Below are positions 5,898 through 21,043 of a stretch of DNA of 64,000 nt, piece by piece. The stretch covers positions 1,362,198 through 1,426,197 of the forward strand of contig NZ_AP023355.1 of the NCBI RefSeq assembly GCF_016865425.1, written 5' to 3'. This DNA comes from Actinocatenispora thailandica. Lineage in GTDB: Bacteria > Actinomycetota > Actinomycetes > Mycobacteriales > Micromonosporaceae. Every line of letters starts with the position of its first letter. The stretch's first letter is position 1. The notes beneath the pieces were generated by a model. The model did not search any database, was not told the origin of the DNA, and saw only the letters and a program-made list of their open reading frames with translations. The translations under genes and the position numbers were made by a program.

Positions 5898-7142
5898 ATG
5901 CGAGTGGCGGTGCGGCGCGACCTGGATCGGCTGTGGCGGGCCTACGCGGTCAGCGCGTCCGGGACCTGGCTCGCCTTCGGTGCCTTCCCGCTGGTCGCGG
6001 TCCGGGTGCTGCACGCGCCCGCGTTCGCGGTGTCGCTGCTGGAGGCGGCGGGGCTCGCCGTCGCGGCGATCGTCGCGTTCCCGCTCGGACCGTGGGTGGC
6101 GCACCGCACGAAGCGGCCGGTACTGATCGCGATGGACCTGGTCCGGTTCGCCGTGCTGGCGAGCGTGCCGGTCGCCGCGCTGCTCGGCGTGCTGTCCTAC
6201 GCGCAGCTGCTGGCCGTGGCGGTGATCTCCGGCGCCGCCGGGATCGCCTTCACCGCCGCCTCCGGTGCGTACCTCAAGCACCTCGTCACCGGCCCGGACC
6301 TGCTGGCGGCGAACGGTCGGTTCGAGGCGACGAGCTGGGTCGTGACCGCGGTGGGGCCGCCGCTCGGCGGGGCGCTGGTCGGGGTGCTCGGCCCGGTCGC
6401 GACGCTGGCGGCCGACGCGCTCAGCTACCTGCTGTCCGCGCTGGGGGTGTCCCGGCTCCGCGGCGGCGACGTACCGGCAGCGCGCGATCAGGCGGGCCGG
6501 GTGAGGGTGGCCGACCTGCTCACCGGCGCGCGCACGATCGCCGGCGATCCGGTGCTGCGGCGGCTGTTCGCCAACTCGGTCCTGGTCGGCGGGTTGATCA
6601 TGGCCACCGTGCCGCTGCTGTCGGTGCTGCTCCTCGGCCGGTACCGGTTCCCGGTCTGGCAGTACGGTCTCGCCTTCGGTGTGCCGGCGCTCGGCGGGTT
6701 CCTGGGTGCCCGGCTCTCCGCCCGGCTGGTCGCCCGGTTCGGCCGGTACCGGGTGCTGCGCGTCGCGGGCTGGCTGCGCTCGCTGTTCCCGCTCGGGCTG
6801 GCCTTCGTCGGCCCCGGCGTACCCGGGCTGCTGACCGTGCTGGTGGTGGAGGCGCTGCTGGTCACCTGCATGGGCGTGTTCAACCCGATCCACGCCACCG
6901 AACGGCTGCGGCGGGTGTCGGCCGGCCGGGCCGCTCAACTGCTCGGCACCTGGAGCGTCGCCGGCAAGCTGGTGCAGGCCGGCCTGACCGCGGGCTGGGG
7001 CCTGCTGGCCACGCTCACCAGCCCGCGCACCGCGATCACCGTGTCCGGCGTGCTGCTGCTCGCCACCCCGCTGCTGCTGCCCACCCGCGCCCGACTGTCC
7101 GCCACCGAACCCGCGGCGGCCGAACCCGCCGTGGTGGCCTGA
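5898..7142 (+). CDS. MFS transporter
   Basis: A 414-residue polytopic membrane protein of the major facilitator superfamily, with about 10-12 hydrophobic helices and an MFS-3 or enterobactin-exporter-like pattern. Examples are AYAVSASGTWLAFGAFPLVA near the start and PLLSVLLLGRYRFPVWQYG in the second half. ATG 5898 was chosen over an earlier in-frame start because it follows a strong GGGGGAG site. The substrate is unknown; export is more usual for this family than import. Its divergent LysR neighbour probably regulates it. The gene ends 18 bases from the convergent ArsR-type gene. Confidence 0.87.
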   Translation: MRVAVRRDLDRLWRAYAVSASGTWLAFGAFPLVAVRVLHAPAFAVSLLEAAGLAVAAIVAFPLGPWVAHRTKRPVLIAMDLVRFAVLASVPVAALLGVLSYAQLLAVAVISGAAGIAFTAASGAYLKHLVTGPDLLAANGRFEATSWVVTAVGPPLGGALVGVLGPVATLAADALSYLLSALGVSRLRGGDVPAARDQAGRVRVADLLTGARTIAGDPVLRRLFANSVLVGGLIMATVPLLSVLLLGRYRFPVWQYGLAFGVPALGGFLGARLSARLVARFGRYRVLRVAGWLRSLFPLGLAFVGPGVPGLLTVLVVEALLVTCMGVFNPIHATERLRRVSAGRAAQLLGTWSVAGKLVQAGLTAGWGLLATLTSPRTAITVSGVLLLATPLLLPTRARLSATEPAAAEPAVVA

Positions 7143-7886: not shown

Positions 7887-8801
7887 ATGGAACGCGCGGA
7901 CATCGACCGGATCGTGGCCGAGGTCGGCAAGCTCGTCGCCACCCGGTACGTCTTCGCCGAGCTGGGCGAGCAGATCGCGGCGGACCTCGCCGCCACCGCC
8001 GCCACCGGCCGGTACGCGACCGCCACGGACGAGGCCGCCCTCGCCGAGCTGGTCACTGCCGACCTGCAGCGCGCGAACGGTGACGGCCATCTGCGGCTGA
8101 TCCACCACACCGAGTCGATCGACGGGGCCGAGGACGGCGCGGTGGCCGAGGCGACGTACGAGCGACGTGCCCGGCGCAGCATGAGCGGCATCGGCCGGAT
8201 CGAACGGCTCGACGGCAACATCGGGCTGCTGGAGATCTCCCCGGCGCTGTTCGCCGCGCACCTGGTCGGCGACGAGATCACCGCCGCGATGCGGATCCTG
8301 CGGCACACCGACGCGCTCATCCTCGACCTGCGGGGCTGCCTCGGCAGCGACCCCGGCTCCGTCGCGTACTTCCTCAGCTACCTGCTGCCGCCCGAAACCC
8401 ACCTCAACGACGTGTACGACCGGGGCAGCGACAGCACGACACAGTTCTGGACGCTGCCCCACGTGCCCGGCCCGCGGTACGGCACCGAGCGGCCCGTCTA
8501 CGTCCTCACCAGCCGCCGGACGTTCTCCGGCGGCGAGGAGCTGGCGTACGACCTGCGGCACAACGACCGCGCCACCCTGGTCGGCGAGACCACCGGGGGT
8601 GGGGCGCACCCGCGCATCGGGGTCCGGCTCGGACCGCACCTGGAGGCGAGCATCCCCACCTGCCGCAGCATCAACCCGATCACCGGTACCGACTGGGAGG
8701 GCACCGGCGTGCCCCCGCACCTCGCCACCTCCGCCGCCGAGGCGCTGGCCACCGCGCACGAACACGCCCGTACCCGGCTGGCCGAGAACCCGGATAGTTG
8801 A
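7887..8801 (+). CDS. S41 family peptidase-like protein (IRBP/tail-specific protease type)
   Basis: A 304-residue protein with the N-terminal helical domain of IRBP-type S41 proteins (residues 1-85) and a C-terminal protease core. LEISP, ALILDLRGCLGSDPGSVAYF and YVLTSRRTFSGGEELAYDLR are typical. The serine of TFSGGEE is the expected nucleophile, and LVGETTGGG follows as usual. There is no signal peptide or PDZ domain, so it is probably cytoplasmic. The start is fixed by GGAGGA 5 bases upstream of ATG 7887. Likely control is by the divergent ArsR-type repressor. Its physiological substrate is unknown. Confidence 0.82.
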   Translation: MERADIDRIVAEVGKLVATRYVFAELGEQIAADLAATAATGRYATATDEAALAELVTADLQRANGDGHLRLIHHTESIDGAEDGAVAEATYERRARRSMSGIGRIERLDGNIGLLEISPALFAAHLVGDEITAAMRILRHTDALILDLRGCLGSDPGSVAYFLSYLLPPETHLNDVYDRGSDSTTQFWTLPHVPGPRYGTERPVYVLTSRRTFSGGEELAYDLRHNDRATLVGETTGGGAHPRIGVRLGPHLEASIPTCRSINPITGTDWEGTGVPPHLATSAAEALATAHEHARTRLAENPDS

Positions 8802-12207: not shown

Positions 12208-12698
12208 GCGGGCCGGGTTCGGGTGTCCCGTCCGGCGGGTGGCGGATCGTGGTCGGCTGCGACGACGCGGGGCTTGCGTACAAGGAGCGGATCAAGGCCG
12301 ATCTGCTCGCCGACCCCCGGGTCGGCGCGGTCGACGATCTCGGCGTGCACGACGGTGACCACACCGCGTACCCGCACATCGGGCTCGCGGCGGCGCGCAA
12401 GGTGGCGGCCGGCGAGGCGGACCGGGCGCTGCTGGTGTGCGGTACCGGCATCGGGATGGCGATCAGCGCCAACAAGGTGCCCGGCGTGCGCGCCACCACC
12501 GCGCACGACAGCTTCTCGGTGGAACGGTCCGTCAAGTCCAACAACTGCCAGGTGCTCACGCTCGGCCAGCGCGTCGTCGGCGTCGAACTGGCCCGGCTGC
12601 TGGCCCGGGAGTGGCTGGGGCACGTGTTCGATCCCGCCTCGGCGTCGGCGGACAAGGTCGCCGTCATCGACGCGTACGAGGAAAACCGGTGCGGCTGA
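12204..12698 (+). CDS. RpiB family isomerase, EryI/DerI-like candidate
   Basis: A 164-residue RpiB-family sugar-phosphate isomerase. RIVVGCDDAGLAYKERI gives the substrate Asp pair, YPHIGLAAARKVAAGE follows, and LLVCGTGIGMAISANKVPGV holds the catalytic Cys and phosphate loop. Family members act on ribose-5-phosphate or, in erythritol pathways (EryI, DerI), on D-erythrulose-4-phosphate to give D-erythrose-4-phosphate. The context between a Dak-type kinase and an FGGY kinase supports the tetrulose role. Translation appears coupled to the mini-ORF before it (ATGA) and overlaps the next gene by 10 bases. Confidence 0.87.
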   Translation: MSGPGSGVPSGGWRIVVGCDDAGLAYKERIKADLLADPRVGAVDDLGVHDGDHTAYPHIGLAAARKVAAGEADRALLVCGTGIGMAISANKVPGVRATTAHDSFSVERSVKSNNCQVLTLGQRVVGVELARLLAREWLGHVFDPASASADKVAVIDAYEENRCG

Positions 12699-14155
12699 CC
12701 GGCCGTTACCTCGGCATCGACCTGGGTACCTCGGTCGCGAAGCTGGCGCTGTTCACCGAGTGCGGTGACCTGGTCGCGACCGCCGCCAGGTCGGTACCGT
12801 TGGAGCATCCGGCGCCCGGCCGGGTCGAGCAGGACGCGAGCCTGATCGTCGACGCGGTCCGCGATCTGGGTCGCGAGCTGTGCCCCGATCCCGACGCCCT
12901 CGCGCTGGTCGCGATCACCGGGCAGGGCGACGGGTGCTGGCTGACCGATCGGTCCGGGCATCCGGTCCGGCCGGCGATCTCCTGGCTGGACGGTCGTGCC
13001 GCCGGCATCCTCGCCGACTGGAACCGGGCCGGGATCGCCGAGGCGGTGTACCGGATCAACGGCAACACGATGTTCCCGGGCGCGCTCGGACCGCTGCTGT
13101 ACTGGCTCGACGAACACGAACCGGCCAGCCTGGCCCGCGCCGAGACCGCCGGGTACTGCAAGGACATGCTGTTCACCCGGCTGACCGGGGACCGCGCCAC
13201 CGACCCGTCCGACTCCTCGCTGCCGTTCGGTGACCACGCCGGCGGGTACTCCGCCGAGGCGTTGGATCTGTGCGGGCTCGCGCACCGGGCCGACCTGCTG
13301 GCACCCGTGGTGACCCCGCTGCCGGTCGGCACGGTGCATCCCGCCGGTGCCGCGGCGGTCGGCCTACCGGCCGGCACACCGGTCACGAACGGTCCGTTCG
13401 ACCTGCCGGCCTGCGCGATCGGCGGCGGCGTACGCGAGCCGGGCGACGGGCTGCTGACCCTCGGCACCACGCTGGCCTGCCAGGTACTCGTCGAGTCGGT
13501 GGACGCCGCCGGCGAGCCGGCCGGGATGCATCTGGCGACCGGCACGCCGGGGCGATGGCTGCGGGCGATGCCGGCGATGGTCGGCACCGCCTCGCTGGAC
13601 TGGGCGCTCAACCTCGTCGGGCTCTCGCACGCCGACCTGGACGGCGTGCTGCGCTCGACCGAACCCGGCGCACACGGCGTCGAGATGCTCCCGTACCTGG
13701 CTCCGTCCGGTGAGCGCGCCCCGTTCGTCGACCCGGCCGCCCGCGGCCAGCTCACCGGCATCAGCCTGACCACGACCCGCGAGGACCTGGTGCGCGCGCT
13801 GTGCGAGGGGCTGGCGTTCGCCGCCCGGCAGTGCCTGACGGCCGCCGGGCTGGACGGTCGCCTGGTCGTCTGCGGCGGCGGTACCCGCTCGCTGCCGTGG
13901 CTGGAGATCTTCGCCTCGGTGCTGGGCCGGCCGATCGAGGTGGCCGGCGCCGAGGTCGGCGCCCGCGGCGCCATTCTCGCCGGCCTGGCCGCTGTCGGTG
14001 GCGCCGAGGCGACGCCGGACACCAAGACCTGGACCGCGCCGGTCCGCGTGGTCGACCCGGACCCGACCGCCGCCCGCCACTACGAGTACGCCTACCAGCG
14101 CTACCTGGCCCACCAGTCCGCCGCCCGTTCCCTCTGGCCCCGCCCGCCCCGGTGA
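12689..14155 (+). CDS. FGGY family carbohydrate kinase
   Basis: A 488-residue sugar or polyol kinase. The N-terminal phosphate motif is YLGIDLGTSVAKLALF, the substrate helix region is ITGQGDGCW, and the FGGY adenosine loop is LVVCGGGTRSLPWLEI. The likely catalytic Asp is in TNGPFDLPAC. It starts with GTG 12689 inside the end of the RpiB gene and ends the first half of the polyol locus. Members phosphorylate xylulose, erythritol, glycerol or related substrates, and its identity here is open. The Pro/Arg-rich last ten residues look non-conserved. Confidence 0.9.
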   Translation: MRLTGRYLGIDLGTSVAKLALFTECGDLVATAARSVPLEHPAPGRVEQDASLIVDAVRDLGRELCPDPDALALVAITGQGDGCWLTDRSGHPVRPAISWLDGRAAGILADWNRAGIAEAVYRINGNTMFPGALGPLLYWLDEHEPASLARAETAGYCKDMLFTRLTGDRATDPSDSSLPFGDHAGGYSAEALDLCGLAHRADLLAPVVTPLPVGTVHPAGAAAVGLPAGTPVTNGPFDLPACAIGGGVREPGDGLLTLGTTLACQVLVESVDAAGEPAGMHLATGTPGRWLRAMPAMVGTASLDWALNLVGLSHADLDGVLRSTEPGAHGVEMLPYLAPSGERAPFVDPAARGQLTGISLTTTREDLVRALCEGLAFAARQCLTAAGLDGRLVVCGGGTRSLPWLEIFASVLGRPIEVAGAEVGARGAILAGLAAVGGAEATPDTKTWTAPVRVVDPDPTAARHYEYAYQRYLAHQSAARSLWPRPPR

Positions 14156-14269
14156 TCGTCTCGGCGGCGGTGGGCGACACTGCACGGCTGTCCTGACGGT
14201 CGTCGGTGCCGGGTGTGAGGTCGGTGCTTGCCGCAGTTCCGCTGCACTCCGACGCGGTATGGGCGTCCA

Positions 14270-15172
14270 CTACGGACCGATGGTGCCGGTGGGGCCCGCG
14301 GGCCGCAGGTGGGTGAGCCGGTACCGGGCCCACTGCTGGGCGGCCACGGCAAGCTCGTGCTGCCGGCCGGTGGCGCCGGCGCGTAGTGTCCACAGCCCCG
14401 CGATCGCGATGGCCGCGACGGTGACCGCCGCGGCGCGGGCGTCGGCGTAGACGGGGACGGTGCGGGCCCACCGTTCGGCCTGCTCTGCCGTGTGGCCGAC
14501 ATCAAGCAGCCGAATCGTCAGCAGCGCGGTGTCGACCCAGGCCGCACCCCGTGCCGGCCACGCCCAGTCCACCAGCCGGGCCCGCTCGCCGTCGATCAGC
14601 CAGTTCTGCGGGGCCGGGTCGGTGTGAACCAGGGTGTCGCCGTCGACCAGCGCAGGCGCGGCACGCTCCAAGTGCGCGAACTGTTCCACATGGTCGCGGG
14701 TCCAGTCGTCCAGCCACGCCGGCGGCTGCCCGGCAAGCTTGGCCCAGCCCAGCGGGGGCGCCCAGCGGGCGGCCAACGGTTGCACCGGGTCCATCGGGCT
14801 GGGCGTCAGCAGCGTCGCCGTGCGTTCGAGTGCGTCGGCCAGCAGTGGCAGATCGGCCGAGCCGGGCGGTAGCGCGGCGTGCCGGCCGGCGATGTGTTCC
14901 AGGCCCAGCAGCAGCCAGCCATCGGCTTCGAGCTGCCACCGCAGCCGCGGACCGACGCCCGCGCCCGCTGCCCGCGCTTCGGTCCGGTGCATCCGCACCA
15001 GCGGATGATCGGCTTGGATGCCCTTGCAGAACACGAGACCGTGGCCGGTGTGCAGGGTGACGGTCAGGTCGGAACCGGCCCCATCGGGTGCGGCCTGCAC
15101 GTCGCTGATCGGGCCGGTGTGTGCCTGGACCGCGGCCCGCACGGTGCCGGGCAGCTGCTCCCAGGTGACCAT
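14270..15172 (-). CDS. Aminoglycoside phosphotransferase (APH) family protein
   Basis: A 300-residue APH/choline-kinase-fold phosphotransferase. The Brenner motif is LVHTDPAPQNWLI (HxDxxxxN, catalytic Asp) and the metal-binding motif is ARLVDWAWPARG. The N-lobe lysine is probably in GLVFCKGIQADHPL. ATG 15172 follows a GCAGGAG site; the upstream part of the open frame is low-complexity and is rejected. The family phosphorylates antibiotics, sugars or small amines in the cytoplasm. It lies downstream of the Cys-tailed protein with a hairpin between them, so it may be expressed partly by read-through. No antibiotic can be named. Confidence 0.82.
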   Translation of the reverse strand: MVTWEQLPGTVRAAVQAHTGPISDVQAAPDGAGSDLTVTLHTGHGLVFCKGIQADHPLVRMHRTEARAAGAGVGPRLRWQLEADGWLLLGLEHIAGRHAALPPGSADLPLLADALERTATLLTPSPMDPVQPLAARWAPPLGWAKLAGQPPAWLDDWTRDHVEQFAHLERAAPALVDGDTLVHTDPAPQNWLIDGERARLVDWAWPARGAAWVDTALLTIRLLDVGHTAEQAERWARTVPVYADARAAAVTVAAIAIAGLWTLRAGATGRQHELAVAAQQWARYRLTHLRPAGPTGTIGP

Positions 15173-15193
15173 CGTGTGCTCCTGCCGTGGGCG

Positions 15194-15226
15194 ACGCCCC
15201 GACCGCGGCGCTGCGGGTCGGGGCGT
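15194..15226 (-). terminator. Hairpin between Cys-tailed gene and APH gene
   Basis: A perfect 11-base stem (ACGCCCCGACC at 15194-15204, GGTCGGGGCGT at 15216-15226) lies after the stop of the gene at 15240 and just before the APH ribosome site. The short T tract is poor, so partial termination or 3-prime end protection is likely. A similar stem could mask the start of the APH mRNA. Confidence 0.5.
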
Positions 15227-15239
15227 GGTCGGTTGTGTT

Positions 15240-15719
15240 CTACCTGGGCGAGTTGTGGCAGCCGGCGTGGCACTGGTGGCACTTGCCGCCGCCTCCGTTA
15301 CAGCGGGCTGCGACCGGTGTCCACAGCTCCACGTCGACCCGGTGCCCGGTCGCGGTGAGTGCGGCGATCGTGTCGCGCAGCACCTGGTGGCCGCCACGGT
15401 CGTCGGCCGGCAGGTCGGCGTCGGTCTCGTCGTCGGGTACGTGGTGCAGGAACCGTCCCGCGATCTGCTGGCAGACCGCGGCGTACTCGCGGGTGTAGAG
15501 GATGAAGGTGTGCCAGCCGATGTCGACCATCAGCGACGGGGACAGCGGCCGGTCGGTGACCGCGCAGGCCCGCAGGAACGCGAGTGCTTCGGTCATGACC
15601 CGCTCGGCCAGCGGCCGGTCCAGCCCGTGGTCGGTGACGATGCGGCGGGCAAGCCGGTCGAACAGCGGGGCGGGGACCAGGTCACGTGCGGGGGTTGTCT
15701 CGTGTACTGCGATGGTCAT
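15240..15719 (-). CDS. Glycine-rich-domain-like protein with Cys/His-rich C-terminal tail
   Basis: A 159-residue protein with no confident family. The core has RPLSPSLMVDIGWHTFILYT, then REYAAVCQQIAGRFLHHVP. This resembles the VD-x-x-WH helix pattern I recall in GRDP-like (DUF1399) proteins. The last 25 residues are separate in character: RCNGGGGKCHQCHAGCHNSP contains four Cys and two His, a likely metal or Fe-S site or a modified tail. It has no signal peptide. Its promoter region is shared with the XRE-deformylase fusion, which may regulate it. Function unknown. Confidence 0.65.
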   Translation of the reverse strand: MTIAVHETTPARDLVPAPLFDRLARRIVTDHGLDRPLAERVMTEALAFLRACAVTDRPLSPSLMVDIGWHTFILYTREYAAVCQQIAGRFLHHVPDDETDADLPADDRGGHQVLRDTIAALTATGHRVDVELWTPVAARCNGGGGKCHQCHAGCHNSPR

Positions 15720-15751
15720 CAGGCACCTCCGGTACGGGTGGGTTCGTGGAC

Positions 15752-15793
15752 GTACCGATAGGACACCGCTTGTACCGAGGGTGACGGTACCGT
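15752..15793. promoter_or_regulatory. Three GTACCGA/T repeats in a divergent promoter
   Basis: GTACCGA occurs at 15752 and 15772 (20 bases apart) and GTACCGT at 15787, with the reverse form CGTACC nearby at 15730-15735. Repeats at two-turn spacing between the Cys-tailed gene and the XRE-deformylase gene are plausible XRE binding sites. Confidence 0.4.
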
Positions 15794-15832
15794 GGCCACC
15801 TACTCACTCCCTCATCACTCCCGAAGGAGCGC

Positions 15833-17329
15833 ATGCGGATGCCAGCACAGGACGGGTTCGTCGCCGAGCTTCGCCGTCGCCGGGACGTGGCCGGCCTGTC
15901 GCAGATCGCGCTGGCGGGACTGATGGGCTACGGCCGATCGTACGTGTCCAAAGTGGAGACCGGCGGGGAGCTGCCGTCGAAGGAGTTCGCCGACAAGGCC
16001 GGCCAGGCCCTCGGCGCGGCCGGGGCGTTGACCGCCGCGTGGCAGGAGGAGTTCGCGGACCGCCGGGCACCAGCGGCCGGTGCGACACCGGACGTCGGCG
16101 CGGCTGGGCTGCTGGTGCTCGATGACGACGCCGAGCTGGTGTACGAGCTGGAGCCCGGCCGGTACCGGGCCACGATGCGTCGCCGGATCCGCAACGTCGG
16201 CGCTGAGCCGATCACCCGGTACCTGATCCGGATCTCGGTCGACCGCTACCCGGGCGACGCGCAACGCTCCAACCTGCTGTACCGGGAGGACCCGCTGCGC
16301 TGGGACGACATCGACCTGCACGCCTGGCACGGCGAGGGCCGTACACAGAGAATGCGCTGGCAGGTCAAGGTCGACCGCGACGCGGTCAAGGAGATCTGGT
16401 TGGAGCTGGCCGCCGACGACGGCAGCCGGTTCCCCCTCTACCCCGGTCATGACACCGTCATCGAGTACACCTACACCGTGCCGGAGCGACAGTGGGGCCA
16501 CTGGTTTCAACGCGCGGTCCGACTCCCGACCCGCCGGCTGTCGGTGCAGCTGGTCTTTCCCGCCGCGCTTGGCCCCACCGTTTGGGGGTTGCACACCTCG
16601 ATGTCCGCCGAGTCTTCCCCGCTATCGACCCCGATCGAGGAGACCGTCCAGGGCGACGACCACCTGTACCGGTGGTCGACCACCGACCCGCCGCTGCACG
16701 CCCGGTACCGGCTGGAGTGGACGATCACCGACCACACCATCGACCCGGCCCGACGGCCCAGCGAACGAATGGCCGCACTCGGCGTGCTGCAGCAGGGCCA
16801 CCGGCTGCTGTCCCAACCGGCCCGACCGTTCGACCTGCCCGCCGAGGCCGACGACGCTCGCCGGCTGATCGCCGAGCTGCGATCGGTCATGACCCGAGTC
16901 GGTGCCGTCCACCAGTTCGCCAAAGGCATGGGCATCGCCGCACCTCAGATCGGCGTCGGCCGGGCCGCCGCGGTCGTGCGCACCGCCGCCGGTGACGAGA
17001 TCACCCTGCTCAACCCGACCATCATCGACAGCAGCGACCAGGCCGACGCCCAGTACGAGGGCTGCCTGTCGTTCTTCGACGTACGCGGGCAGGTACCCCG
17101 GCCGCTGACCATCCAGGTCGAACACACCGACATCGACGGCCGCCACCGCATCACCCAGTACGAACACGGGGTCGCCCGGCTGGTCGCGCACGAAATCGAC
17201 CACCTCCACGGACACCTGTACCTCGACCGGATGCCGCCCGGGGTCGAGCCCATCCCCGTCGAGCAGTACCGCGGTACCGGGCAAGCATGGAGCTACCAGC
17301 AGCCGACTACGCGGCCGGCCGATCGGTGA
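15833..17329 (+). CDS. XRE regulator fused to a complete peptide deformylase
   Basis: A 498-residue fusion. Residues 8-65 are an XRE helix-turn-helix (LRRRRDVAGLSQIALAGLMG, then RSYVSKVE). Residues 95-300 match the beta-rich domain common in actinobacterial XRE proteins, with WGHWFQRAVRLPTRRLSVQL and PPLHARYRLEW. Residues 313-480 are peptide deformylase with all three motifs intact: GMGIAAPQIG (365-374), EGCLS (409-413, Cys ligand) and HEIDH (453-457). The enzyme removes formyl groups from nascent proteins. Here catalysis or inhibitor binding may be tied to DNA binding. ATG 15833 follows GAAGGAG. Confidence 0.88.
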   Translation: MRMPAQDGFVAELRRRRDVAGLSQIALAGLMGYGRSYVSKVETGGELPSKEFADKAGQALGAAGALTAAWQEEFADRRAPAAGATPDVGAAGLLVLDDDAELVYELEPGRYRATMRRRIRNVGAEPITRYLIRISVDRYPGDAQRSNLLYREDPLRWDDIDLHAWHGEGRTQRMRWQVKVDRDAVKEIWLELAADDGSRFPLYPGHDTVIEYTYTVPERQWGHWFQRAVRLPTRRLSVQLVFPAALGPTVWGLHTSMSAESSPLSTPIEETVQGDDHLYRWSTTDPPLHARYRLEWTITDHTIDPARRPSERMAALGVLQQGHRLLSQPARPFDLPAEADDARRLIAELRSVMTRVGAVHQFAKGMGIAAPQIGVGRAAAVVRTAAGDEITLLNPTIIDSSDQADAQYEGCLSFFDVRGQVPRPLTIQVEHTDIDGRHRITQYEHGVARLVAHEIDHLHGHLYLDRMPPGVEPIPVEQYRGTGQAWSYQQPTTRPADR

Positions 17330-17711
17330 CTTCTCCTGCGACGAGCGGGTTCCATGCTTCGCGGATGGCGACCGGGAGGACGAGTTCGTCCCACAGGTCC
17401 ACGAGTAGCGCTCCGTCGATGTAGGTGAGTACGTCTTCCGGGGTGCCCTCGCGGAGAACGATCTCGTACACCCAGGCCCGGTCCCGGCGGTTGCGCATGG
17501 TGAAGCTGCGACCGGTGTCGGACCAGTTCAGCCGCAGTGGCAGTACGACCGTGGCGAGCGCCCTTTCGGCCGGGAGGCGCGGCAGTACGTTCGGAACATC
17601 GACGGGCAGGCCACGGTGGGTGGCCACTTTCCGGAACTCGATCTTGGGTGTGATCGACAGTTCGTAGCCGGCGGCGTTGAGGATTCGGCTGGTTACAGCC
17701 AGCGTAGGAAT
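17307..17711 (-). pseudogene. Decapitated XRE-family regulator
   Basis: The readable frame of 135 codons resembles the C-terminal part of a known actinobacterial XRE regulator type. TLAVTSRILNAAGYELSITP is the end of the helix-turn-helix; LPLRLNWSDTGRSF follows, then ARVYEIVLREGTP-like sequence and YIDGALLVDLWDELVLP. No good start codon exists. Similarity stops at the edge of the hairpin at 17712-17733, and an in-frame stop lies a few codons further. The DNA-binding half appears to have been lost when the DUF397/Scr1 pair arrived. A GTG at 17627 could start a 106-residue remnant. Its tail overlaps the end of the XRE-deformylase gene on the other strand. Confidence 0.6.
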
Positions 17712-17733
17712 AGCCCCCGGAATCCCGGGGGCT
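17712..17733 (-). terminator. Intrinsic terminator of the DUF397 operon
   Basis: AGCCCCCGG and CCGGGGGCT form a perfect 9-base stem with a 4-base loop, followed on the minus strand by ATTCCT. It lies 27 bases after the DUF397 stop codon. Confidence 0.65.
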
Positions 17734-17759
17734 ATGACTGCTGCTACCTCTGAACTACT

Positions 17760-17942
17760 TCACCGCTTCACGGAGTTGACGAACGCCCTGAAAGCGTCGG
17801 GCGATACGCTCAGCGTCCCGCCGTCGCGGTCCTTGGTGTCCCGGACCAGGTACATCGATCCTGGCTTGACCTCAACGCAGTTGCCGTTCCCGGCAGACCG
17901 GCTGGACTTCCTCCACCCGTGCTCGGGAGTCATGTTTCTCAA
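17760..17942 (-). CDS. DUF397 domain-containing protein
   Basis: A 60-residue protein with the DUF397 signature: GWRKSSRSAGNGNCVEV near the start, then YLVRDTKDRDGGTLSVSP and AFRAFVNSVK. These small acidic proteins are encoded next to Scr1-type XRE regulators in actinomycetes and are believed to act with them as antitoxin- or co-regulator-like partners. It follows the XRE gene by 6 bases and ends at a terminator. The ATG at 17933 is an alternative start. Confidence 0.88.
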   Translation of the reverse strand: MRNMTPEHGWRKSSRSAGNGNCVEVKPGSMYLVRDTKDRDGGTLSVSPDAFRAFVNSVKR

Positions 17943-17948
17943 CCTCGC

Positions 17949-18809
17949 TCACATGGACGCGCGAACCTCTCGGAGCAAGTTTAGCGACCGGTCGGTGTCC
18001 AGTGCACGCGCGATGAGGTGCTGAAACATGAGCTTGTACCGGGCGACGTCGGGTGGTTCCTGTAGGTAGGCGGAGCTGGTCAGGTGGTCCGTATACGCCA
18101 CCGGCGGGAACGGCTCCGGGAATGTCATCAGGACGAACGGGCCGGTCATGGCCGCGTGCGCGCCGGCCGCGTAGGGCAAGATCTGGAGGGTGACGTCTGG
18201 TCCGGTGGCCAGCCGCTCAAGGTGGTCAAGCTGCTCCTTCATGACCTTCCGCCCGCCGACCTCTTGCCGGATGACCCCCTCGGCGAGGATGGCCCAGACG
18301 TGCGGTTTGCCGTCATCGCGCTCGAGGATTGCTTGGCGATCCATCCGGAAGGACACTTTCCGCGAGACTTCGTCGGCGGTCGCGTCAACCAGAGATGCCC
18401 TGGTCACGGCTTCTGCGTACGCCTTGGTCTGCAACAGCCCTGGGATGACCAGACCTTCGAACGTTTGCAGCTCAACGGCAGAGCCTTCCAATCCCACGTA
18501 CTGGCCGAACCAGTCGAGTACGACGTCTGCGTAGTCCCTCTGGTACCACGTCCGCTGCCGTGCCTCTCGGGCTACCCGATCGATCGCCGCCGCACGGTCA
18601 GCCGGCACGTTGTAGTGCCGGCACAGCGCCGCTGCATCGGTGGCGGAGACGCCAGCCCTGGCCCCTTCGATCCGGGACAGCTTCGAGTGTGACCAGCCGA
18701 GTTCGGCCGCCACACGCTCGGCCGTGTCGCCGGTCGGTATCCGCCATGCCTTGAGTTCGCTCGCGAGCCACATCCGCCGAACAGTGGCCCCGGACCCGTC
18801 GTCAGCCAT
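17949..18809 (-). CDS. Scr1-type helix-turn-helix regulator (DUF5753)
   Basis: A 286-residue regulator. Residues 10-70 are the XRE domain (TAERVAAELGWSHSKLSRIE). The remainder is the DUF5753 domain: TWYQRDYADVVLDWFGQYVG, then LQTFEGLVIPGLLQTKAYAE and VRQEVGG-like and LQILPYAAGAHAAM segments. This is the standard partner of DUF397. Such pairs are abundant in sporulating actinomycetes and have been linked to development and antibiotic control. Start ATG 18809 is the family-typical length. Two small ORFs of unknown function are transcribed divergently. Confidence 0.88.
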   Translation of the reverse strand: MADDGSGATVRRMWLASELKAWRIPTGDTAERVAAELGWSHSKLSRIEGARAGVSATDAAALCRHYNVPADRAAAIDRVAREARQRTWYQRDYADVVLDWFGQYVGLEGSAVELQTFEGLVIPGLLQTKAYAEAVTRASLVDATADEVSRKVSFRMDRQAILERDDGKPHVWAILAEGVIRQEVGGRKVMKEQLDHLERLATGPDVTLQILPYAAGAHAAMTGPFVLMTFPEPFPPVAYTDHLTSSAYLQEPPDVARYKLMFQHLIARALDTDRSLNLLREVRASM

Positions 18810-18956
18810 GCCCCGACTCTAGTCGATGCGCCCATTGGCTGCTCGACCCATGCCAAGATGCACATTGCATTTCGACTTGGGTCACAGTACTGTCCGGAGT
18901 GGGATGAACACCAAGGAGGGCGGGATGTTGGACACGGTGGACCCGGTACGGCCAGG

Positions 18957-19190
18957 ATGTGGGTTGATCCTCGGCGCGATGCCGTTGCCCGGGGACGGGT
19001 GTGGCTCACGAATCGGTGCGTAGGGCTGGCTACGTACCGGTCACGCTGGTTCGAGGTCATCCGGGTGGAACGGGCCTGGTTGCCGGACCACTCGTATCTG
19101 ATCGGGTACTACCCGGCATCGCCGCGCGAGATCCGACGTGAGTACGTCCTCAACGACGCGGTACGAGTCGAACGGCGGTGCCGGTCGTGA
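18957..19190 (+). CDS. Small conserved-looking protein of unknown function
   Basis: The frame encodes RVWLTNRCVGLATYRSRWFE, then VIRVERAWLPDHSYLIGYYP and REYVLNDAVRVE, a compact beta-rich pattern. I do not recognise the family. ATG 18957 has a poor ribosome site. A perfect site (AAGGAGGG) precedes ATG 18925 in another frame, which encodes MLDTVDPVRP and stops at 19023. One extra C near 18953 would join the two as MLDTVDPVRPRMWVDP. So this may be one gene with a missing base, or two overlapping ORFs. It is coupled to the next gene by TGATG. Confidence 0.45.
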   Translation: MWVDPRRDAVARGRVWLTNRCVGLATYRSRWFEVIRVERAWLPDHSYLIGYYPASPREIRREYVLNDAVRVERRCRS

Positions 19191-19411
19191 TGGCCATGGA
19201 CCAAGAGCCGAAGCAAGGTGACGCGGTGTTCATCAGCCCGGCCGCCGGCATCCACGGTCACGGCTGCTGGTGGGCGCTGGTGGTGTCCACGATGCCGGCG
19301 CTGGTCAAGGGCGCGGTGTACCTCCGGGTCGTACCGGTCGAGGACACGGCGGCAACCCCGCAGGTGTTCTACGCGCGGACGTCCGGCCTGCTGGTTAACA
19401 AGAGGAGCTAG
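19190..19411 (+). CDS. Small hypothetical protein
   Basis: A 73-residue protein starting at the ATG that overlaps the previous stop (TGATG). It contains QGDAVFISPAAGIHGHGCWW and GAVYLRVVPVEDT, suggesting a small beta-barrel fold, with no catalytic motif. The family is unknown. It ends 3 bases from the stop of the convergent glpD-like gene, marking the right edge of the accessory block. Confidence 0.5.
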   Translation: MAMDQEPKQGDAVFISPAAGIHGHGCWWALVVSTMPALVKGAVYLRVVPVEDTAATPQVFYARTSGLLVNKRS

Positions 19412-19414
19412 TGG

Positions 19415-21043
19415 TCAGAGGGCGGCGCGTTCGGCGGAGAGCCAGGTGCGGTAGGTCTTGACCTGGGCGTCGCTCTCTGCGGGGTCCCAGCCGAGCAGCG
19501 GGGCGACGATGGCGGCGACGTGCGGGGCGGCGGCGGCACCGCCGTCGGGCGTCTCGAACGACACGTGGGTACGGTGCCAGAGCAGGTCTTCCAGCGTCGT
19601 CGCGCCCTCGTGCGTGACCGCGTACGCGAACTCGGCGGCGAGATGCCCGCCGGTGTCCGGCACCGGCCGTACCAGGTCCGGGTCGGCGTCGAGCACCTGC
19701 TCGGTCAGCGACCCGTACCGGCCGGCGAGGCGGACCACGTCGGCGGCGGCGAGCCCGTGTGCGGCGGCGATCCGGTCGGCCCGGTGCGAGACGGTGCGCC
19801 AGCCGGTCGTACCGACCAGCGGCAGGTCGGCGGTCTCCGACGCCGGCAGCCGCTCGCCGAGCGCCATGCCGACCGCGTCGACGGCGTCGGCCGCCATCGC
19901 CCGGTAGGTGGTGTACTTGCCACCGACGATGGTGATCATGCCGGCCGGTCCGGGCAGCACCGAGTGGTCCCGGGACAGCGCCGAGGTCGTGCCGGCGTCG
20001 CCGGCCGGCGCGAGCAGCGGGCGCAGCCCGGCGAACGTGCCGACGATGTGCTCGCGGCCGATCGGCCGCCGCAGGTACCGGTTGATGTTGCGCAGCAGGT
20101 AGTCGATCTCGGCCGGCTCGGCGCGCGGGGTGCTCAGGTCGCCGTGGTAGGGCGTGTCGGTGGTGCCGAGCATCCACCGGTCGAACCACTTGCGGATGAT
20201 GATGACCGAGTCCTCGGCGCGGGCGAAGATCCCGGTCGTCGAGTCGAGCGCGGCCGGGTCGAGCACGACGTGTACGCCCTTGGCCGGCGCCACCCGGAAC
20301 GTCTCCGCGCCGGCCAGCCGCTGGATCTCGGCCGACCACACCCCGGCCGCGTTGACGACCGCGCGGGCGGTGATGCGGTGCCGGTCCCCGGTGACGGTGT
20401 CCTCGACCACGACGCCGGCGACCCGGTCGCCCGCTCGGGGAATCTCGACCACGCGGGCGCGGGTGATCACCCGCGCGCCGAGTGACGCCGCGGTGCGCGC
20501 CAGCACCATGGTGTGCCGGGCGTCGTCGACCCGGACGTCGTAGTACTGGATGCCGCCGCGCACCCGATGCGGATCGAGGGCCGGGGCGACCCGCAGCGCG
20601 CCGCGCCGGGAGTAGTGCCGGTGGTGCGGGATCCCGCTGCGGGACAGCGTCATGGCGTCGTAGAGCGCCACGCCGGCGCCGATGTAGGGCCGCTCGTACG
20701 CCCGGGTCAGCGGGTACAGGAACGGCTCCGGCTGGGCCAGGTAGCCGCACAGCCGGTTGACCATCAGGTCCCGCTCGTGCAGCGCCTGGTTGACCAGCTT
20801 GACGTTGAGCTGCTCCAGGTAGCGCAGCCCGCCGTGGAACGTCTTGCCCGACCTCGACGAGGTACCCGCCGCCAGATCACCGGCGTCGACCAGCACCACC
20901 GACAGCCCGCGCGCGGCGGCGTCCAGCGCGGTACCGGCGCCGGTCGCGCCGGCCCCGATCACCACCACGTCGTAACTGCCGCCGGTCGCGTCGGCGAGCG
21001 CCCGGTCCCGTTGTTGCCCGGACAGCGCCGAGGTGTCGTTCAT
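19415..21043 (-). CDS. FAD-dependent glycerol-3-phosphate dehydrogenase/oxidase family (GlpD/EryB-like)
   Basis: A 542-residue GlpD-family flavoprotein. The FAD-binding VVVIGAGATGAGTALDAAAR is at residues 26-45. It continues with TSSRSGKTFHGGLRYLE, PAKGVHVVLDP and VGGKYTTYRAMAADAVD, plus a C-terminal DAO-C domain. GlpD oxidises glycerol-3-phosphate to DHAP at the membrane, and EryB relatives oxidise erythritol-4-phosphate. ATG 21043 has AAAGGA upstream. It is the last gene after an FGGY kinase and a class II aldolase, which makes a polyol-phosphate oxidation role likely. Confidence 0.88.
   Translation of the reverse strand: MNDTSALSGQQRDRALADATGGSYDVVVIGAGATGAGTALDAAARGLSVVLVDAGDLAAGTSSRSGKTFHGGLRYLEQLNVKLVNQALHERDLMVNRLCGYLAQPEPFLYPLTRAYERPYIGAGVALYDAMTLSRSGIPHHRHYSRRGALRVAPALDPHRVRGGIQYYDVRVDDARHTMVLARTAASLGARVITRARVVEIPRAGDRVAGVVVEDTVTGDRHRITARAVVNAAGVWSAEIQRLAGAETFRVAPAKGVHVVLDPAALDSTTGIFARAEDSVIIIRKWFDRWMLGTTDTPYHGDLSTPRAEPAEIDYLLRNINRYLRRPIGREHIVGTFAGLRPLLAPAGDAGTTSALSRDHSVLPGPAGMITIVGGKYTTYRAMAADAVDAVGMALGERLPASETADLPLVGTTGWRTVSHRADRIAAAHGLAAADVVRLAGRYGSLTEQVLDADPDLVRPVPDTGGHLAAEFAYAVTHEGATTLEDLLWHRTHVSFETPDGGAAAAPHVAAIVAPLLGWDPAESDAQVKTYRTWLSAERAAL

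Follow-up and report, generated by a model that had tools for sequence, protein, structure and literature searches.

A family of helix-turn-helix–peptide deformylase fusions in actinobacteria, with a candidate operator upstream of the fusion genes

Introduction

Peptide deformylase (PDF) is an antibiotic target for which actinobacteria make natural inhibitors. Enzyme-regulator fusions are known: NadR and BirA each join an N-terminal helix-turn-helix (HTH) to an intact enzyme and act in local regulation. The locus described here, within a 64,000-nucleotide stretch of Actinocatenispora thailandica DNA (hereafter the window), raises the question of what a protein does that carries an HTH domain in front of a deformylase. 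A preliminary description of the locus had suggested that the fusion senses deformylase inhibitors or formyl peptides and switches the divergent genes, or that it serves as an inhibitor-resistant backup.

The PDF family, accessory PDFs on mobile elements and a def-fmt fusion are known already (PMC12690207, accessible part of the text). Among the titles and beginnings of abstracts listed in a literature search there was no description of an HTH-deformylase fusion, which is not proof of absence. What appears to be new here is the repeat TCAYTCA-N4-TCAYTCA upstream of the fusion genes as a candidate operator.

Results

Architecture of the fusion

The fusion is encoded by one open reading frame of 498 codons at 15833..17329 (plus strand), as the preliminary description had claimed. 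By our own reading of the sequence, the likelier start is the ATG at 15839 (496 aa), which is better spaced from GAAGGAG, the likely ribosome-binding site at 15823..15829 (plus strand). Numbered on the 498-aa reading, residues 9–70 (15857..16042) form a helix-turn-helix domain, HTH_31 (PF13560; 49.6 bits, Pfam cut-off 27), and residues 318–469 match Pep_deformylase (PF01327; 115 bits, cut-off 22.8). The deformylase domain, at 16775..17278, contains GMGIAAPQIG, EGCLSFF and HEIDH, so that the three metal motifs described earlier are indeed intact. The protein scores below the cut-off of the NCBIfam peptide deformylase equivalog TIGR00079 (92.4 against 103.95 bits), and no Pfam family rises above its cut-off between HTH_31 and Pep_deformylase.

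This middle region, at 16100..16732 on the plus strand, is predicted to be a β-domain with the fold of the ribophorin I and M1 aminopeptidase N-domains. In structure model mcfc234bfb864 (mean pLDDT 87.6) all three domains fold, the C-terminal domain as a deformylase and the middle domain as an M1 aminopeptidase N-domain; a first model had pLDDT below 50 in most of its PDF part, and only its HTH and middle domains were considered. At the sequence level, the window's middle domain reaches 15.7 bits against the DUF3857 profile, below the cut-off of 24.6, and the middle domains of 10 of 27 members match DUF3857 at E ≤ 10 (best E 0.0018). A PDB sequence search gave a best E of 0.036. In its predicted fold, the middle domain resembles the M1 aminopeptidase N-domain, ribophorin I and DUF3857 (carried by structure 3kd4), whereas in the fusion it is followed by a PDF rather than by an M1 catalytic domain.

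Distribution of the family

The architecture recurs in many genera, as the search proposed in the preliminary description was meant to establish, and is thus more than chance. Among 61 genomes (its own and those of relatives), 19 have a single match of more than 460 residues, comprising the genome itself, one at 87% identity and 17 at 48–57%; a further four have the match in two pieces inside one ORF. The middle domain was found in 23 of 394 genomes sampled from the class, 13 of them belonging to genus g94, in whose members the same middle-PDF unit follows a different HTH. At phylum level, the fusion model matched 5 of 396 sampled genomes at E ≤ 1e-30, three of them over most of its length.

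Mobile DNA contributes many further members. Of 72,556 plasmid records, 37 match at E ≤ 1e-10 (one of them, from Shinella, weakly and in the PDF only), and 13 contain at least 80% of the fusion query. IMG/VR holds at least 11 distinct fusion-bearing contigs (L119–L124, L239, L241, L243, L244, L246), which resemble AICE elements by our own reading of SpdB-like and small ORFs. A phage origin was considered and set aside, given this resemblance and because 50,697 phage records yielded no fusion match at E ≤ 1e-15. The fusion therefore belongs to a family present in several actinobacterial groups, carried on chromosomes, on Streptomyces, Nocardia and Nonomuraea plasmids and on AICE-like elements. 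Split forms also exist, one with a 4-bp gene overlap. Gene calls at unannotated loci are our own, with genes or starts possibly missed, and the PLSDB gene tables are incomplete.

Two side observations concern gene arrangement. In two distant genomes (L048 and L116) the fusion gene overlaps the start of a gene that we read as encoding a PfkB-type kinase. At L053 (7443–10199 and 12476–14827) the middle domain forms the end of an NTPase/TPR-like protein, and a neighbouring protein has it in front of an inositol-monophosphatase domain, so this domain has been joined to more than one enzyme.

A distinct clade of deformylases

In a 79-row tree, 29 housekeeping PDFs separate from 50 fusion-type PDFs (41 fused, 3 split, 6 solo) with support 100/100, across a branch of about three changes per column. 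All six solo PDFs and two of the three split ones group with one fused PDF (subclade support 100/96); the third split PDF (L054) is a long, unplaced row. The tree was restricted to ORFs containing HExDH, so that motif III is present by construction; no row could be used for L064, L067, L279 and L281, and the set does not include several Micromonosporaceae fusions.

GxGxAAxQ, EGCxS and HExxH are invariant in the 18 full fusions of set A1, which excludes L052, L070 (a duplicate) and relatives that the gene caller had split or mis-called, and motifs I and II (GxGxAAxQ, EGCLS) are present in 41/41 fused PDFs of the tree. In L052, which is in neither set, motif II is changed to EGCLA. EGCLS is followed by FF in 40 and YF in one of the fused PDFs, against a hydrophobic residue and Pro in 29/29 housekeeping PDFs.

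In accessory PDFs, actinonin is contacted by Arg97, and Vibrio becomes less susceptible when Tyr takes its place (PMC12690207, accessible part). This position, nine residues past the Glu of EGCLS by our own count from the same source, holds Arg in 41/41 fused PDFs of the tree set versus 5/29 housekeeping PDFs; the Tyr signature of actinonin-tolerant, Def2-like enzymes is absent. The three other PDFs of the window's own genome have His, Tyr and Trp there. Judged from this one residue, the fusion PDF would be of the actinonin-sensitive form.

Solo members of the clade occur on plasmid records: none of the 17 plasmid records H39–H55 is one of the 18 in which the middle domain was detected at E ≤ 1e-8; the PDF can thus act apart from the regulator.

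A repeat shared by the fusion promoters

The candidate operator is a direct repeat, TCACTCC-N4-TCACTCC, with an 11-bp period, at 15804..15821 (plus strand). Its exact core, TCACTCN5TCACTC, has a single match in the whole 7.43-Mb genome, and that match is at the fusion promoter. In the form TCAYTCA-N4-TCAYTCA, with at most two mismatches, the repeat lies 35–53 bp upstream of the fusion start in 20 of 32 scored loci, drawn from six lineages whose neighbouring genes differ, a count that is no independent test, since the motif was first noticed in these same promoters and then counted. The positive loci comprise Actinocatenispora (2/2), Lentzea (1), AICE-like elements (11/11 among the matches listed, all close relatives), Streptomyces plasmids (2/6), Nonomuraea (1) and family f31 (3/3). 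The repeat precedes none of the 418 other genes of the scored loci and appeared in 1 of 6,400 shuffles. Twelve scored loci are without it at the assigned start, some of these starts being doubtful. On the S. rochei plasmid L201 the repeat is at 6257 and the fusion at 7956, with a hypothetical gene and an IS5 transposase gene between them; in its near relative L213 the repeat is directly upstream of the fusion gene.

Scoring covered these 32 loci and 25 further Micromonosporaceae loci, 21 of which are adjacent to a FhuF-like gene; outside it were the 13 g94 loci, L099, L200 (which repeats L100) and six loci in which no start was placed (L048, L058, L116, L118, L206, L208). None of the 25 Micromonosporaceae loci, where the recognition helix differs, has the repeat. 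A different motif, TGTCAA-N4-7-TGTC, is found in 16/22 FhuF-adjacent loci versus 2/2,200 random sequences. This apparent pairing of another recognition helix with another motif we count in favour of the proposed autoregulation. The palindrome TGCC-N5-GGCA lies upstream of 6/13 g94 fusions.

Three GTACCG[A/T] copies had been pointed out in the divergent promoter region. They are present, at 15752, 15772 and 15787, with two more on the opposite strand at 15730 and 15785, and the resulting cluster (15730..15792) is the sole spot in the 64 kb with at least four hexamer matches per 63 bp, palindromes counting twice. As evidence they are weaker than first proposed, because GTACCG/CGGTAC is five-fold over-represented across the window (196 matches against 39.5 expected). 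We therefore regard the cluster as a possible second element and not as the main operator, for which TCACTCC-N4-TCACTCC is better supported.

A probably mobile three-gene block

Divergent from the fusion is a gene for a 159-aa protein with a Cys-rich tail (15240..15719, minus strand), which has relatives and matches no Pfam family at E ≤ 1. Its tail, CNGGGGKCHQCHAGCHNSPR, contains four Cys, as first described, and three His rather than two. The second gene of the divergent pair (14270..15172, minus strand) encodes a kinase-like protein, which may be aminoglycoside-phosphotransferase-like (APH-fold) by its motifs; it too matches no Pfam family at E ≤ 1, and only one NCBIfam model, weakly (E 0.019, far under its cut-off).

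These two genes are not regular companions of the fusion. Among the loci examined, they flank it only in two Actinocatenispora genomes, other loci have other neighbours, and the pair occurs without an adjacent fusion at L233, beside a divergent TPR-like gene, and at L234. The L233 promoter is without the GTACCG cluster, and the whole of L233 without the TCAYTCA repeat. The Cys-tailed protein and the kinase are an independent pair, which together with the fusion forms a block of about 3 kb.

This block stands at two places. Comparison of the window with the 21-kb locus of the second Actinocatenispora (L035) gave a single block, 14306..17300, 83.7% identical, and nothing further at E ≤ 1e-5; in that genome the counterpart of the window's left flank sits on a contig other than the block's. 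In a third Actinocatenispora, only 0.41 kb, with one small cupin-like ORF, separates the matches to the two window flanks, compared with 5.3 kb here. In the window, 12437–21043 comprises the cassette and an adjacent XRE-DUF5753 gene (17949–18809) between two genes, by our own reading those of an FGGY-type sugar kinase and of a glycerol-3-phosphate-dehydrogenase-like protein.

Elsewhere, the Cys-tailed protein has relatives at L229, L231 and L232 with radical SAM, methyltransferase or HTH genes nearby, and its closer relatives have a CxQCHxGC-like tail in common. A role of these relatives as a modified-peptide precursor is conceivable.

Neighbourhoods in other lineages

The divergent layout is common in the family. 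In 12 annotated plasmid loci (HTH-middle or middle-PDF), some with truncated or split genes (L205, L208, L214) or forming close pairs (L201/L213, L203/L212), the nearest upstream gene is divergent in 11, and in one of these it is an IS gene; only the broken-up L206 departs from this. On plasmids, the divergent operons carry genes of several kinds: radical SAM/SPASM, 7-deazaguanine-type, D-Ala-D-Ala ligase, dTDP-glucose, NRPS and glycosyltransferase. A PemK/MazF region occurs in one case. Among the AICE-like matches listed, the nearest upstream called gene is divergent in 8/11. The Lentzea locus does not follow this layout and has a GntR gene on the same strand as the fusion. Six AICE-like loci (L120, L122, L124, L239, L244, L246) have a GIY-YIG-like or NUDIX gene downstream that overlaps the fusion by 4 bp; Pfam assigned two of these genes, to T5orf172/MUG113 (L120) and NUDIX (L124).

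A different setting is found in 22 Micromonosporaceae loci. There a FhuF-like gene is divergent from the fusion or from its PDF-less form, and 20 of the loci have a flavohaemoprotein (globin-FAD-NAD) nearby. The FhuF-like proteins have tails of the form CC-x10-C-x2-C or near it; the one member tested matched PF06276 at E 6.8e-5, below the cut-off. Six of the 22 loci encode the HTH and middle domain with, by length, no PDF, so regulation at these six does not need it; in one of the PDF-less genomes (G008), another contig carries a sequence matching the PDF part at 44%. We do not take this setting as the family's general function, since it was not seen in the examined loci outside the Micromonosporaceae. 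Within the set L037–L069, for example at L043:7875–11818, the fusions are flanked by a flavohaemoprotein and by a FhuF-like gene that may carry a DtxR-type iron box.

Discussion

The explanation that we favour is that the fusion is an autoregulated one-component factor with an intact deformylase, controlling divergent genes and sensing a ligand at the PDF site, and taken as a whole we give it an even chance. The XRE domain would bind two TCAYTCA half-sites, spaced by one helical turn and lying just upstream of its own start codon, and from this repeat would control its own gene together with the neighbouring operon, which in the window encodes the Cys-tailed protein and the kinase; we propose the wider control because the arrangement is divergent. 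The C-terminal module, an M1-N-like β-domain and a metal-dependent PDF, would bind a peptide N-terminus or another PDF-site ligand and so change DNA binding, and regulator and divergent target would travel as a cassette. The sequences themselves show the architecture, the motifs, the single PDF clade, the shared repeat with its uniqueness in the window's own genome, and the block at two places; that the protein binds the repeat, controls the divergent genes and senses a ligand through the PDF is what we infer.

These components do not have the same standing. Local autoregulation is quite probable, given the repeat, its position and its uniqueness, and the divergent layout would extend its reach to the neighbouring operon. 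The shared repeat suggests an autoregulator that may also cover a divergent operon varying between lineages, although the difference in partners between lineages in itself counts against this explanation. The earlier idea that the fusion switches the divergent genes is thus upheld to the extent that the protein looks like a regulator, with a shared repeat, a unique core and a mostly divergent layout, but the Cys-tailed protein and kinase are not its regular partners. For the PDF as sensor, the prospects are slightly short of even: motif conservation, the M1-N-like domain beside the PDF and Arg97 favour sensing, whereas the PDF-less forms and the solo PDFs speak against it. Like NadR and BirA, the fusion has an N-terminal HTH and an intact enzyme, and ligand control of binding may be envisaged by analogy; unlike them, the enzyme is a deformylase and an M1-N-like β-domain lies in between. 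If sensing does occur, the PDF pocket behind the M1-like peptide-docking domain might read N-formyl peptides, hydroxamate-type PDF inhibitors or metal state (Fe, Zn, NO). More tentatively still, an essential housekeeping enzyme may here have been turned into a transcriptional sensor that switches mobile accessory or biosynthetic cassettes in actinobacteria.

The domains could also be fused for co-expression only, with the HTH and middle domain regulating and the PDF working as an accessory deformylase or on a product of the divergent operon. Such an arrangement would accommodate the split forms (including the one with a 4-bp overlap), the solo PDFs nested within the fusion clade, the PDF-less regulators in 6/22 FhuF-adjacent loci and the plasmid copies adjoining biosynthetic-looking operons. 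Most members, however, stay fused through deep divergence, and the divergent operons have no obvious common chemistry; we consider it rather unlikely. An inhibitor-resistant backup deformylase, its level merely tuned by the HTH, would be in line with the three other PDFs of the genome, as expected of a spare, and with the capacity of accessory PDFs to reduce actinonin susceptibility (PMC12690207, accessible part). It would not require a 200-aa middle domain, and the R97Y signature of the tolerant accessory enzymes in that source is replaced by Arg in 41/41 fused PDFs, albeit at one residue only, while 24/29 housekeeping PDFs, the genome's own three included, are without Arg there. The kept motifs and Arg97 would thus favour ligand binding over a resistant backup, which we regard as improbable, yet PDF-less and solo-PDF forms exist.

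The FhuF-adjacent loci bring in the metal itself: the Fe(II)-Cys site of the PDF might report iron, NO or oxidant to an iron- or NO-related neighbourhood. The 22 loci divergent from FhuF-like genes and the 20 nearby flavohaemoproteins point this way, as do 13/22 intergenic regions lying within four mismatches of a DtxR-type iron box (shuffle means 8.1–9.2, lowest single shuffle 5), and NO inactivates the Salmonella PDF, partly via S-nitrosylation of the metal-binding Cys (PMC7683392, accessible part). Since six of these loci have no PDF and the FhuF setting is missing from the window as well as from the examined loci of other families, such a sensor has only a small chance of being the general answer. 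The combination of an XRE protein with a HEXXH enzyme on AICE-like elements, once as two overlapping genes, also recalls ImmR/ImmA and XRE-IrrE-type modules, which pair an XRE protein with a HEXXH metalloenzyme on mobile elements. By that model the HEXXH domain would cleave or inactivate the repressor and release the element. The enzyme is a deformylase with its motifs kept rather than an IrrE-type protease, no ImmA/IrrE-type family appeared among the Pfam matches of the window fusion at E ≤ 1, most members are fused and many copies lie outside AICE-like elements, so that we hold such a switch to be very improbable.

A family of DNA-binding deformylases with a candidate operator, situated beside varied biosynthetic-looking operons, would offer a handle on the signal that induces such operons and would help to locate them. 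Of the 13 plasmid records with at least 80% of the fusion, 11 annotate it simply as 'peptide deformylase', and counts of such genes in actinobacteria may therefore include regulators.

Other PDFs on mobile DNA provide a comparison. Those described in PMC12690207 are of the same enzyme family with intact motifs, some plasmid-borne, and include a def-fmt fusion; its accessible part contains no HTH fusion, and the PDFs studied here differ in forming their own clade, in EGCLS-[FY]F and in keeping R97. LydA, the PDF of the lydiamycin cluster, is likewise encoded in an actinobacterial biosynthetic cluster on a megaplasmid; in the accessible part of its report no DNA-binding domain is mentioned, and the cluster's product inhibits PDF (PMC12130866). 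On Streptomyces plasmids, solo PDFs of the fusion clade (L207, L210, L211, L215) lie in some cases beside kinase, NUDIX or sugar-nucleotide genes.
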